Below, piece by piece: positions 47,775 through 53,776 of a DNA stretch of 64,000 nucleotides. Where the stretch lies: positions 62,001 through 126,000 of the forward strand of contig BCIV01000015.1 of NCBI GenBank assembly GCA_001600055.1, in the 5' to 3' direction. The translations under genes and the position numbers were made by a program. The stretch comes from Filobasidium wieringae. Taxonomy: Eukaryota > Basidiomycota > Tremellomycetes > Filobasidiales > Filobasidiaceae. The notes beneath the pieces are model-generated. The model was not told where the DNA came from. It made no database searches and worked only from the letters and a program-made list of their open reading frames with translations. The stretch's first letter is position 1, and every line of letters starts with the position of its first letter.

Positions 47775-48146
47775 CTAATGACTCAAGAACCTCCTTCCCA
47801 AATGCCTCCTCCTCCTTAATATAGACAACCCAAGTTTCCCTCCCTTCAACCTCGACAAGAACCCGTGTTTCCTCTTCCTCTTCCTCTGGGACGGCTGGTA
47901 CTCGGCTCCATAGGCTTTGAATCGGAGTTGCTGAAGGATGGGGGAAGCGGAAAGAGGAGTAAGGAGGGAGATGGATGTAGGTCGGAGGGCAGAGGTTCGG
48001 GATGAAGCCATGAGGGAGAACGATCGAGAGGATGAAGCCAGAAACGATCGGGAAGAATTGATGGCTGTGGATTTGGGGAGGCTGGCCGTTATCCTACATG
48101 ATCGTAGAGTGGCCGCCAAGGCGGACCATGAGTTGAATCGAGGCAT
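47775..48146 (-). CDS. MRPL34: mitochondrial large-subunit ribosomal protein bL34m
   Basis: Single-exon frame of 123 codons, ATG at 48144-48146. The first about 75 residues are Ser/Arg-rich and lack acidic residues apart from isolated positions, as expected for a mitochondrial targeting sequence. The C-terminal about 45 residues are a clear bL34: [39 protein letters not shown] and the terminal LSH. It is imported into the mitochondrial matrix and packs into the large ribosomal subunit. It converges on the metallo-beta-lactamase gene and lies downstream of, and parallel to, the Egt1 gene. Confidence 0.92.
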
Positions 48147-48457: not shown

Positions 48458-51400
48458 CTAATTGTCATATACCACACGTCCTCCGTTCCATGCAAACGGA
48501 TAGTTGTCTTGGAAGAAGTTGCGGAGAGACGATCGACACGCCAATCGCGGGATCGTCACGTACGAACCACCGAGCTGTCAAGCGTAGGCTTAGCATTCGA
48601 TGCAGAGGATACATCACGAGGACCAACTCACCACGACAAGATGGATATCATCGTAAAAGTCTGTACTGTAGCCCGGGTAGACCTCCGAGGTTTCGAAATC
48701 CGGATAGCTTGCGAATTTGGTCGATGTCCATTCCCAAACACCACCATTATGGCCGTGCAGGATTCTGCCGCAAGAATCGATGCGCGTGTTTGTTGGACTG
48801 GAGCAGGATGCGTGATTTATTAGTATACGATTTGCACCTTCGCAATCCATGACTCACGGTACAGGGTGCCATCGCTTGACTCCCACGTTACTGCTCAGGC
48901 CAGCAGGTCGAGGCCCAACATCCGACTTCCAAAGCATCCTCAGTTCCGACTCGGTGGGAAGTCGCCCACCCTTCCACTTTGCGAAGCTTGTAAGCTCTTT
49001 CCCGCTAGCCATCAATGGCCAATGTTGAGCTATAGCCATGGGCACAGGACCGTACAAGGTTTTGACATCCGGAACACCGTCCGTCGTGTACCAAGACCCA
49101 GGAATCTTCTTGATGCCATTTTGTCGCATGTACGTCCAGTACTCTCCATTCGTCACAGGCAAACTGTCTACCTTGAACGCCTTGACGTCAACAACAGTCT
49201 GAGGATTTTCATTGTCCCATCCGAACTCATGCCCAGACCAAGACGATGGTTCCAAGTGTAACTTGTCTTCGGATTCCTTGTCGTCATGTCCAAGTGCGAT
49301 TTGACCGGCCTCGATGTCCAGGATGACGGACCGGTCCTTCCTTTCATCCCATTTGCGAGCTAACTCTGCCCACTTTGGACGGGCGAATCCAGGGGGTGGT
49401 AAGGTCTTGGGCGACTGTATGAGCATGAACAGAAGCGTCTATGGAGCACAAGCGGATAGTCAGAGAAAGCTTGCCAAGTGTTTGCTCGTGAAGTGAATCA
49501 CTAACCTCCATATGGAACGCCTCATGTTCGTAAGTCATCCACAAGATCCTTGCGGTCCGCCTGTTATATACTCGCTTGCCATTCTCAACCTCGTCATAGA
49601 TACTAAGCAGACGCCTTCTGACTCGGTCTCGGAATTCCAAGATCTCTTGGAGAGCTGGCCAGTCCTCGTCATTCTCTGGCACAGCAGAATGGTCCTTAGA
49701 TGACGTAGGACGAAATGAGTTAGAAGAAATGGTTGAGCATCAAAGAGCAGCTTACATGACATTGATTAGGATCATCAACGTGAGGGTCGATACCACGCTC
49801 AAAGATATCCTTGAAATGTTCTGGCTCCGAATGTTTGCCGTTTGTCAGACGAGTAAGATGGATATCAAGGAAGGTAGGACTATCATGAGAAGCGGCATGA
49901 TCAATAAGCTGACGCACTTTGGGAAGTAGGACTGGCGGACTCACATATGTCCGAGGTAGAACAGGCCTGAAAGATAGCTCGGATTCAGTCTACATGTCAT
50001 GGAACAAAAAAGGCCTAAGTCGAACGTGGACCTACACTTGTGCCTAAGATCGATTGGTTTCTCGTGCAACATCTGCTCCGGGATCATCTGAAGGGTGATA
50101 GCGTCCCAGGTTTTCCACAATGCATGCCATTCGCCCCGACTTGGTACAGTCTCGAAGCGCGATTGTTTCGCCGAAATTTCCTTTCCAGACACATCGGTCG
50201 CTTGGACAGGGAAATAGAACGGTGGACGCCGAAGCAGCCACAAGCGGTAGTTGCTATCCTTGTCCTGCCACGAATCGACAGGGACCAACCCAGCTTTGTC
50301 GAACAGCTCCAAACTTTCCGTCATCGAATACTGCAGGACACAAACCGAAAGGGTTTTAGCACATAAAGCAACTTTGCTTGGTGTTGGAGCTTACCTTGAG
50401 GCTCCATTCGATGTTGAGAAGTTCGCCTTTGGCAACATCAATAGAATCCCTTCGCCCGTCTTTCGCCTTCCATGTGACCTGTTGATCTTCGTTGGACCCT
50501 ATGTAGGCTTCATGTCTTCCCAACTTCACGTTATATCTACTCTTATAGCTCCAACTCTCTCGCCTCATACTGGATGTTCTATGCTTGACAGGTTGTTCTA
50601 TGCTGTCCTCGACGGCGTCTTCTAATTCTAGTGCTTCAGCCGCGACTTCGACTCCATGCATGATGAAGTCTCTAGTCTTGCCCTTGGGGTCGTCGTAAGC
50701 TACTTCGATTTTTCGTTTTCCGTCTTCGTACATCGGTTGATGGGGCAAGTGGCCATCCACTATCGAATCTCCATTACTAGGAGATGGCCGACCGTCCAAC
50801 CCTAACAACAAGCTATCCGAGGAGCCTGGACGCATCGGTAAAGAGGCTAGGAAAGATGCAGCGGAATCGCGAGTAAAGTTTCCCAATGACGATCCAAGGA
50901 AAAGGAAATGCACCGGTTTGTCTTCTTCTTGTGCCATGTTGCTTCCACCAACCTGCGATTGCGAGAAAGCGCCGAGCTCTGCCGCCTCTTTACGGAACAT
51001 TTCGATACGGCCCAGCGCGTAGGCCTAAAGCAGATCTGATTAGCATTAACATAGTTATCGCGTTGGCATGATAAGCTCACAAGGTAGTCGAAATCAACCT
51101 GTGCGGGACCTCCCTTGGCCAACGCCATGATCTGCTCCTCCCCCTGTACGATTCCCCATAAGGCCCAAAAGACGCTCGAGGCCGGACTCCATAGGCGTAC
51201 TTCCCTCTCCAAAGCCTCGATTCGAGTTTTCTCAACCTTAGTCTCATCCGTGATGGTCTCATGCCCGTCATGCGGGTCCATATGAACAGAAAGATACGCT
51301 CGGTAGAACCGCTCCCTGTCGTCCATCGATGGATAGGGAGAGTGATAACTCAACGAGTGGGCGTGAGTTGCGTGATGATAGTCCGCTTGCCACTCATGGA

Positions 51401-53776
51401 AATGATTGGCGATATCGAAACCTCTATAATTAGGAGCAGCGTACTCAAAGTCGATAACGATCAATTGATGGTGCTTGGGAGCACCGGTAGGTAAGAGTTT
51501 GTCCAACTCCAGGATATTCCCGTATTGTGTATCGTTGTCTGTGGTAAGAGATAGATCAAGTCAGATACTTATTTTAGCGCAGATAAGCGGTTACTTACGA
51601 CAGAACACCCTCCCTTTTCCCTTCTCTTCCCTGGCATCAACCCAGCTCATGTATTGCTCTACCTCGTCACCGAGAGAGTCCAGTCCAAACTTCTTCAACC
51701 ATTCCTGACCCTTTTCGACGCCTTTCAACGCTCCAGCAGCCTTCTTTGCAAGCGGTAACCACTCCCGGATCCTCTGCCACACTGTAGGTTCATTCCTCTC
51801 CTCGAAACCAAGAGCGTCAAGATCGACCGAGTGAAGTTCTCTCATCCTCCTTGCAATCAGAACAGATGTATTGGGGTCCCTCAGATGTTTAGGCGTAAGA
51901 GCGTGCGAGGGGAAGAACTGCTCGACTCGTCCGTTACGGAAAGTACCCTCAATTCTCGGTCCTAGGCCATAATCAGTCGAAAGCGTGTGCAAAATCCTTA
52001 GTTCCTCGTCCCTCTCGATCAAGGTACCAGTCGAAGGTCCGTAGACGCGGACAAGCAACGTTGGAGGTTTCATACTACCATCCTGAGCACTGATCAGAGG
52101 CTCCATCCCGGGTACTTTGGGAGTCAACAACGGGGACATTGTTGGTTCGAGAGCTCGATCAGAAGGGTTGAAGGAACAGAAGAAGACCGCATTCGTTAAA
52201 GCACCAGAGACTTTCTGTAGGTGTAAGTTATGTGCCTGGACCTTGGGTGACGACCAAAGGGGAAGCCGCTGAAGAGAAGCTATTCTCAGCCAATAGAACC
52301 TTCTCGGCTATTTTGATCAAGAATGCACTCACCAGCTCCCTCAGCATTCCTAAAATCTCGTCTTTAAATCCAGTTCGTTTCCATCCGACCGGATCCAGGC
52401 TGACTCCAGAATGCCTGACCCCTCTGACTCTGGGACCATCGTCCTTCTCACTTTCTGTCTCATGCTCATTCTCTTCCTGCAATTCGATCAACGGGCCATC
52501 GTCCAGGGAGAAGGAGTTCAAGGAGGTGATCGATGATCGCCTTTTCGGATCGGTTTGTGACCTAGAAGCTTTGTGAGTCGTACGAGGCTTCAACAGAGGT
52601 GAAGGAGCAGGTCGAGGAGCTTTGATGTGAGCAGGAGTGACAGAAGGCAGGGCTTCCGATTCATATGGTGCAGGAGATTCCGTAACTCTCCCTCGTTCCT
52701 CAGTCACAGCATTCGAACCGAAATAATCGCTTTTCTCCTTTTTCCCCACTTTAGGCCGCTCCTGTTTCTTCTGCTCGGTTGCTTTAGGAGTAGTTTCATT
52801 CGCTCCATTTGTCTGAGAATGGGCATCTCTCTTTCGTAGTCCTCCAAGTCGCACAAACTCAAGGCCTCGTTCATAGTCCCCCCATAAACCTTTCACTGCG
52901 ATTTTCCCTTCATACTTCTCCTTGTTTGCTGATTCAAGCTGTTCCAAAGTCCGCTCCAATTCAGGCTTGGAGAGATCCAAGGCATGGTAGGTGACAGGAG
53001 GTGATCGGGTTGACGAAGCGGGAGGCAGGGAAGAGGCTATAGCGTTAAGGAAATGAGAGGTCTTGCGCAAGGATCTGGAATTGGCAAATAAACGAACAAC
53101 ACGATTAATGTTGGATCCTCAATTATCATGCCTTGAGTTCGGCAATGTTTAGAAGTCGCTGCACTCACCCCGCTCCAAGCTCAACGACATCCCATCCATT
53201 TCCAGCCTTCTTCTCTCCGTCCAACCCTTCCTCTCCGTTAACCCCCCCATTCCACCTTCCTACAGTCTCATCTCCCCATTTCTGACCCTCCACCCCAGCT
53301 TCTTTCTTCAGACGGCGCTGATGTTCCCGCTCAGCCTGATGATCAAGTTGAGGCGCTTCCTCTTCGTTCTGTTGGGAGGTTTGGGAGAAGATAGAGGGGA
53401 ACCCCATGGAAGCGGTAATAGCCGGTCCATACGTTTTCAGGAGGGACAGCTCGGCCTGGTAAAGGTAGTATTCTGGAGCTTCTTCTGTTATCTGGTCATA
53501 CAACCTATCACCAAAACCAGAAAGGAACACGTTCAATCCCCGGCGATTCGTTCCGTTTCGATTGACTTACCTCAGACCTTTCTCGTCATACAGTACCATA
53601 GTGGGGAGACTCCTTTTGTACTTCCATTCAGCATCCTCCGGTTCTTGTCCGGGAACAACGGGTTCTTGAGTCCCCTTGAGACCTTTAATTATTTCGTCTC
53701 TCAAGGTAAGGGATCCTCCACCCTGAGCAGACGAGGATGTCGCTAGATGCGGCAGTGAGATGATTTCGGGTGACAT
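48458..53776 (-). CDS. EGT1: ergothioneine synthase Egt1 with a choline/ethanolamine kinase domain inserted in the EgtD methyltransferase
   Basis: One gene of roughly 1,450-1,550 codons. Residues about 1-260: EgtD half 1 (SLTLRDEIIKGLKG, YDEKGLRLYDQITEEAPEYY, VVELGAGSLRKTSHFLNAI, TYHALDLSKPELERTLEQL, GLWGDYERGLEF). About 260-360: Lys/Ser/Pro-rich linker. About 360-825: a complete choline/ethanolamine kinase (VRGVRHSGVSLDP, FKDEILGMLRELV, KVSGALTNAVFFCSF, GPRIEGTFRNGRVEQF, FCHNDTQYGNILEL with the catalytic Asp, IDFEYAAPNYRGFDIANHF). From about 835: EgtD half 2 (HFLFLGSSLGNFTRDSAASF, LLLGLDGRPS). Then the DinB/EgtB part with DSPTFLDIHLTRLTNGKHS and the iron-binding HEAFHME, and the FGE-like domain ending NYPFAWNGGRVVYD, stop 48458-48460. 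Egt1 makes hercynine from histidine with SAM, then its cysteine sulfoxide. The kinase would phosphorylate choline or ethanolamine. Both junctions lie in unbroken frames. Confidence 0.9.
50925..52540 (-). other. choline/ethanolamine kinase domain within EGT1
   Basis: Span of the inserted kinase. Its N-terminal region starts near KRRSSITSLNSFSLDDGP (about 52500-52540), as in stand-alone fungal choline kinases. Its last helix is AYALGRIEMFRKEAAELG (about 50965-51023). The HND motif is split by an intron (CAC formed across the junction at about 51552-51599). The catalytic HNDTQYGN and IDFEYA..NYRGFDIANHF..W motifs are intact, so activity is expected. No Met codon lies between the EgtD half and FKDEILGM inside the kinase. 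Confidence 0.85.

Follow-up and report, generated by a model that had tools for sequence, protein, structure and literature searches.

Organization of the locus

In the 64,000-nucleotide stretch of Filobasidium wieringae DNA analyzed here (contig BCIV01000015.1, positions 62,001 to 126,000; hereafter, the window), a single gene of 13 exons was modelled on the minus strand, running from position 53776 to position 48458 and encoding an unbroken product of 1511 amino acids with a computed mass of ~171 kDa. The product consists of the first half of EgtD, the methyltransferase part of the ergothioneine synthase Egt1, followed by a linker, a choline/ethanolamine kinase, the second half of EgtD and, finally, EgtB (Table 1). 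This is the arrangement, on the same strand, that an earlier interpretation of the bare nucleotide letters (the sequence-only reading) had put forward. All 12 introns are bounded by GT..AG and measure 56 to 94 bases each; the acceptor of intron 3 was fixed by alignment with relatives.

Table 1. Features of the modelled gene, in window coordinates
Feature	Residues	Coordinates	Strand	Basis or remarks
Whole gene		48458..53776	-	13 exons, 12 introns, 1511 aa
EgtD half 1, contains introns 1 and 2	1-254	52855..53776	-	Pfam and gene model
Linker, without Met, within exon 3	255-360	52537..52854	-	Gene model
Part homologous to the N-terminal extension of stand-alone choline kinases	361-429	52266..52536	-	Intron 3 (52332-52269) inside
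Choline/ethanolamine kinase domain, contains introns 4 and 5	430-822	50971..52265	-	PF01633; 57/57 invariants
Second linker, within exon 6	823-842	50911..50970	-	Gene model, alignment with relatives
EgtD half 2, from HFLFLGSSLGNF, intron 6 inside	843-1050	50223..50910	-	PF10017
EgtB (DinB-like and FGE parts)	1060-1511	48461..50195	-	PF12867 and PF03781

The Pfam scan was performed on a 1493-residue version of the product, shorter by the first 18 residues of exon 4, and its match positions follow that numbering. PF10017 (EgtD) matched in three stretches, the best of which covers residues 814 to 1030, while PF01633 (kinase) matched residues 430 to 796 over positions 4 to 299 of the 300-position profile (E value, 7.9e-71; 239.3 bits against a cutoff of 29). 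C-terminal to EgtD, PF12867 (DinB_2) and PF03781 (FGE-sulfatase) represent the parts of EgtB. In the numbering of the 1511-residue product, GDYERGLEF occupies residues 246 to 254 (positions 52881 to 52855), HNDTQYGN residues 652 to 659, IDFEYA residues 680 to 685 and HFLFLGSSLGNF residues 843 to 854 (positions 50910 to 50875); motifs and coordinates given before were right. The product thus combines PF10017, DinB_2 and FGE-sulfatase, in that order, in one protein, as Egt1 does, but its methyltransferase domain is not continuous, being interrupted after residue 254, and we therefore classify it as an Egt1 variant rather than as an ordinary Egt1.

One reading frame through both enzymes

Each junction is located inside an exon: exon 3 (53074 to 52333) runs from the first half of EgtD into the linker and exon 6 (51024 to 50395) from the last helix of the kinase into the second half of EgtD, in line with the open frames that the sequence-only reading had noted at either point. 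Its further claim, that the linker contains no methionine and the kinase neither a start nor a stop codon of its own, was borne out by an in-frame scan of the gene model, which showed neither a kinase start within the linker nor a stop codon behind the kinase; the earliest in-frame ATG past the first junction is that of Met424 (position 52347), located in the kinase's own N-terminal part. Using splice-site matrices built from the gene's own 12 introns, a rough test given the small number of sites, we found no competitive donor in exon 3 past the first junction (best score, 4.7, versus 6.3 to 11.5 for the true donors) and no competitive acceptor in exon 6 before EgtD resumes (best score, 3.6, versus 5.4 to 9.9). 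From base composition alone, the probability of encountering no stop in the 174 linker codons is ~3e-4, and that for the 20 codons of the second junction is 0.40. Since the latter is uninformative, the real evidence for a fusion is its conservation in relatives.

The stretch ahead of the kinase domain is longer than the roughly 100 residues previously given for the linker, and its second part is homologous to the N-terminal extension found in stand-alone kinases. From residue 361 on, the product resembles the stand-alone kinase P0137 (45% identity over 100 columns, including the start of the kinase domain; E value, 2e-23), and a further comparison with the N-terminal extensions of stand-alone kinases gave an E value of 2.1e-4; it therefore seems that a nearly whole kinase was taken in. 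The insertion site corresponds to a disordered loop in the predicted structure of an unfused Egt1, and the linker is disordered in the predicted structure of the relative P0123. At the level of sequence, one polypeptide with the choline kinase nested in EgtD is supported by the gene model and by the relatives described below, and no stand-alone kinase was found among the best candidates scored in the genome (see below).

Relatives with the same order

A whole-protein search covered 5.8 billion proteins, of which the best 120 of 304 matches were listed; two further protein searches contributed the best 120 of 888 and the best 120 of 187 matches (7993 best candidates were scored in the latter). 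Statements about relatives refer to these listed matches. Kinase and methyltransferase were found together in at least three proteins among the 120 listed, from Naganishia cerealis (P0001), Naganishia vaughanmartiniae (P0002) and a metagenome (P0003), with 52%, 53% and 51% identity, respectively, to the window product and collinearity over 97 to 99%. The ortholog search that the sequence-only reading had proposed thus recovered the same order in these three sequences, and, as it had stated for other fungi, the remaining Tremellomycetes among the matches listed have an Egt1 and a choline kinase that are not joined.

P0003 has no extra residues at 11 of the window's intron places, and its end fits read-through into the donor of intron 12; because of this, it appears to be a single unspliced genomic frame of 1509 codons, extending through all domains to near the end of EgtB. 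Three more metagenomic sequences (P0122, P0123 and P0147) span the first junction and resemble raw frames; P0121, P0125 and P0162 are not long enough to reveal a fusion. The annotated protein P0002 continues into a beta-eliminating lyase (PF01212), which replaces the end of EgtB; probably, two adjoining genes were merged by annotation.

The distance between the motifs flanking the insertion, GDYERG and LGSSLGN, is 595 residues in the window product and 554, 591 and 592 in the three fused relatives, versus 23 to 192 in unfused Egt1 proteins (a rough count, measurable in 114 of 120 relatives). An alignment-based count undersizes the kinase insert (210 to 215 residues), since insert columns were partly aligned with core columns. 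From the spread among unfused proteins, the host loop seems to have been long and variable before the insertion.

Origin of the insertion

The kinase tree was built from 36 rows (the window and 35 hand-chosen proteins of the 357 returned) and the Egt1 tree, with the insert removed, from 35 hand-chosen rows (31 unfused and 4 fused). In the former, ten rows form one clade (support, 98/93), comprising seven sequences shown to be fused, P0241, for which this is shown in part, and P0121 and P0125, which are too short to judge. Its nearest neighbor is P0138, followed by stand-alone kinases from Cryptococcus, Kwoniella, Tremella, Vanrija and others, while Mrakia branches outside. P0138 ends like a stand-alone kinase and comes from a contig of 1969 bases, so that its fusion state is unsure. 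In the Egt1 tree, the four fused rows likewise group in a single clade (100/100), at the corresponding position, with Phaffia outside. The fused clade falls within the Tremellomycetes in both trees, and the branches of its members are of ordinary length in both. Since the fused rows group together in both trees, we infer a single insertion event, in or near the Filobasidiales. This is the order of Naganishia; for the genera other than Naganishia and Phaffia, we used the orders to which we take them to belong.

Retro-insertion of a spliced kinase message was considered and is disfavored, as an intron after DYL seems to be common to the window gene and P0146, a metagenomic kinase placed among the stand-alone ones (the frames continue as DYLVS, the donor being deduced from translated residues).

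Conserved residues and predicted activities

Invariant positions were defined on 24 stand-alone kinases and on the 31 unfused Egt1 proteins of the tree, both sets hand-chosen. All 57 kinase invariants are kept in the window product, which, with the near full-length profile match, places its kinase part in the PF01633 family; P0122 and P0123 each keep 54 of the 57. Of the 143 Egt1 invariants, the window product retains 139 (39/41 in the EgtD part and 100/102 in the EgtB part), compared with 142 in P0001, 137 in P0002 and 129 in P0003, where 8 of the 14 losses are gaps caused by the missing end. The histidine-binding residues described for mycobacterial EgtD in the accessible part of PMC8593015 have counterparts in both EgtD halves, as read by eye from the alignment. 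For P0024, an unfused Egt1, and for P0137, all NCBIfam matches were below the cutoffs. We conclude that all three activities are most probably functional in the protein.

Genome context

The rest of the genome was searched for a second stand-alone choline kinase, as had been suggested, with the Pfam profile and two stand-alone kinases. Among the best candidates, which were scored, no second kinase locus was found, every match falling at the locus described here, and a second kinase elsewhere is therefore unsupported; nor was PF10017 found anywhere else among the candidates scored. The genome also gave matches to the profiles of the PEMT, cytidylyltransferase-like and CDP-alcohol transferase families, and both choline salvage and phosphatidylethanolamine methylation therefore seem to be available to this yeast.

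A proposed trifunctional protein and its alternatives

Taking these results together, we favor, at a probability of roughly 0.88, one trifunctional protein of ~171 kDa, in which a formerly separate choline kinase would have been inserted in frame, losing its start and stop, with the separate copy now gone. The kinase, with its own N-terminal extension, would have entered a surface loop of the EgtD part in an ancestor of the Filobasidiales. EgtD might fold around its guest because the loop before the LGSSLGN strand was already flexible. The kinase would hang from it as a globular domain of its own and feed the CDP-choline pathway by phosphorylating choline (and perhaps ethanolamine); as in other fungi, hercynine and hercynylcysteine sulfoxide would be made by EgtD and EgtB. 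Such a tether would keep the enzymes in a fixed 1:1 ratio and in one place; because they use and make different compounds, no handing over of substrates from one to another is expected.

Several observations weigh against this interpretation. In Naganishia onofrii, P0241 is annotated with the linker and the kinase joined to a PF03031 protein, without nearly all of the first EgtD half and without the second; this is probably a faulty gene model and possibly a real change. Four Egt1 invariants differ in the window product (L174I, E452R, Y625F and Y896F in P0024 numbering) and may matter for function. Choline was assigned as the putative substrate from similarity to the kinase structure 6whp only. 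The trees conflict within the fused clade: the first sequence to branch off is P0003 in the kinase tree (support for the remaining rows, 98/90) and the window sequence in the Egt1 tree (95/76). Finally, a genome search that scores the best candidates may miss a kinase gene broken up by introns.

A single polypeptide in which one part is dead, with EgtD inactivated by the insertion or the kinase inactive, is the alternative that fares best. A methyltransferase domain split by ~590 residues and the four changed invariants fit such a loss, yet the invariants retained in all three parts of the window product (57/57, 39/41 and 100/102), those kept by P0001 (142/143) and the ordinary branch lengths in both trees make it quite unlikely. 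We rate as lower still the chance that alternative splicing skips exons 4 and 5 (51081 to 52268), producing an Egt1 with a long loop beside the fused form. These exons are 670 and 458 bases long and in phase 0 at both outer sides, so that skipping all 1128 bases would keep the frame while removing most of the kinase; a frame-keeping exon pair, however, occurs by chance in ~1 of 3 cases, and such skipping would be impossible in P0123 and P0003, which seem to be without introns 3 and 4.

A separate kinase gene inside a large EGT1 intron, spliced from the EGT1 message, was one of the two possibilities that the sequence-only reading had named as fatal to its claim. While same-strand nesting is possible in principle, neither a start and a stop of the kinase's own nor competitive host splice sites around it were found, the junctions are exonic, all domains of P0003 apparently share one frame, and the first junction is crossed by what appear to be raw frames in P0122, P0123 and P0147, so that we regard a nested gene as highly improbable. 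The other, an assembly or annotation artefact, has in its favor that the window comes from one assembly and that P0002 and P0241 illustrate how gene models can fail here, but the order of the window gene recurs in N. cerealis, N. vaughanmartiniae and P0003, at 51 to 53% identity, as well as in three fragments spanning the first junction, which leaves such an artefact next to no likelihood. Given the relatives' order and the exonic junctions, then, both an assembly chimera and an intron-nested gene are unsupported.

Possible reasons for the joining in the trifunctional protein that we favor are fixed 1:1 amounts, a logic of sparing S-adenosylmethionine (SAM) and neutral fixation. Choline salvage spares methyl groups that hercynine formation consumes. 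It is plausible that choline phosphorylation and the formation of hercynine are linked with each other and with SAM flux. A bolder and rather unlikely proposal is that of a regulatory hub, in which the histidine trimethylase physically includes the sole choline kinase found in the genome, so that the supply of choline and SAM consumption for the synthesis of ergothioneine and phosphatidylcholine would sense each other within one molecule (EgtD responding, for example, when the kinase binds choline or ATP), with Egt1 repeatedly taking in whole enzymes. Two enzymes of unrelated pathways, each at a single locus as far as found, now appear to form one obligate polypeptide, with the kinase sitting inside the catalytic fold of EgtD and being retained among sequences that are about half identical. 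This is relevant to the tolerance of methyltransferases for large insertions and to the way in which Egt1 and choline kinase are annotated in these yeasts, and a connection between quaternary-amine metabolism for membrane lipids, SAM use and antioxidant synthesis thereby becomes testable.

Comparison with known systems

The order of EgtD and EgtB is that of fungal Egt1, both in Schizosaccharomyces pombe egt1, according to the accessible part of PMC4020840, and in the unfused proteins of Tremellomycetes among P0004 to P0024; the difference lies in the motif spacing given above. Stand-alone fungal choline kinases (Cryptococcus neoformans 6whp, P0137) share the fold, catalytic motifs and N-terminal extension of the window kinase, which differs from them in lacking its own start and stop and in having EgtD at both ends.

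A further parallel is offered by Egt1 proteins with a TAD2-like deaminase (P0038, P0045, P0072, P0080 and P0094), in which a whole unrelated enzyme likewise lies inside Egt1. There, unlike in the window product, the guest is PF00383/PF14437, the host is the FGE domain, near position 797 of P0024, and the lineage, that of smut relatives, is another one. They carry 237 to 243 extra residues at that position, and in P0045 the deaminase occupies residues 940 to 1067, inside the FGE part of EgtB. With these cases, the fusion points to Egt1 as a repeated host of whole enzymes. For the fusion of choline kinase and Egt1, of which the sequence-only reading knew no description, none was found in the openly licensed literature, among the matches listed. 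Nesting of one enzyme in another is a known arrangement, whereas this pair and place are, as far as could be seen, new.

Deaminase-bearing Egt1 proteins account for 5 of 121 rows, the named genera being Thecaphora, Pseudozyma, Violaceomyces and Kalmanozyma. Length also flagged the Egt1 rows P0083 and P0120, as well as P0025 (Rhizoctonia solani), which has an insert of 288 residues in its EgtB part, near position 646 of P0024. Adjacent to and downstream of the window gene, a frame on the minus strand (47775 to 48146) encodes ribosomal protein L34 (PF00468; E value, 3.7e-12), probably the mitochondrial one, judging from its N-terminal extension.

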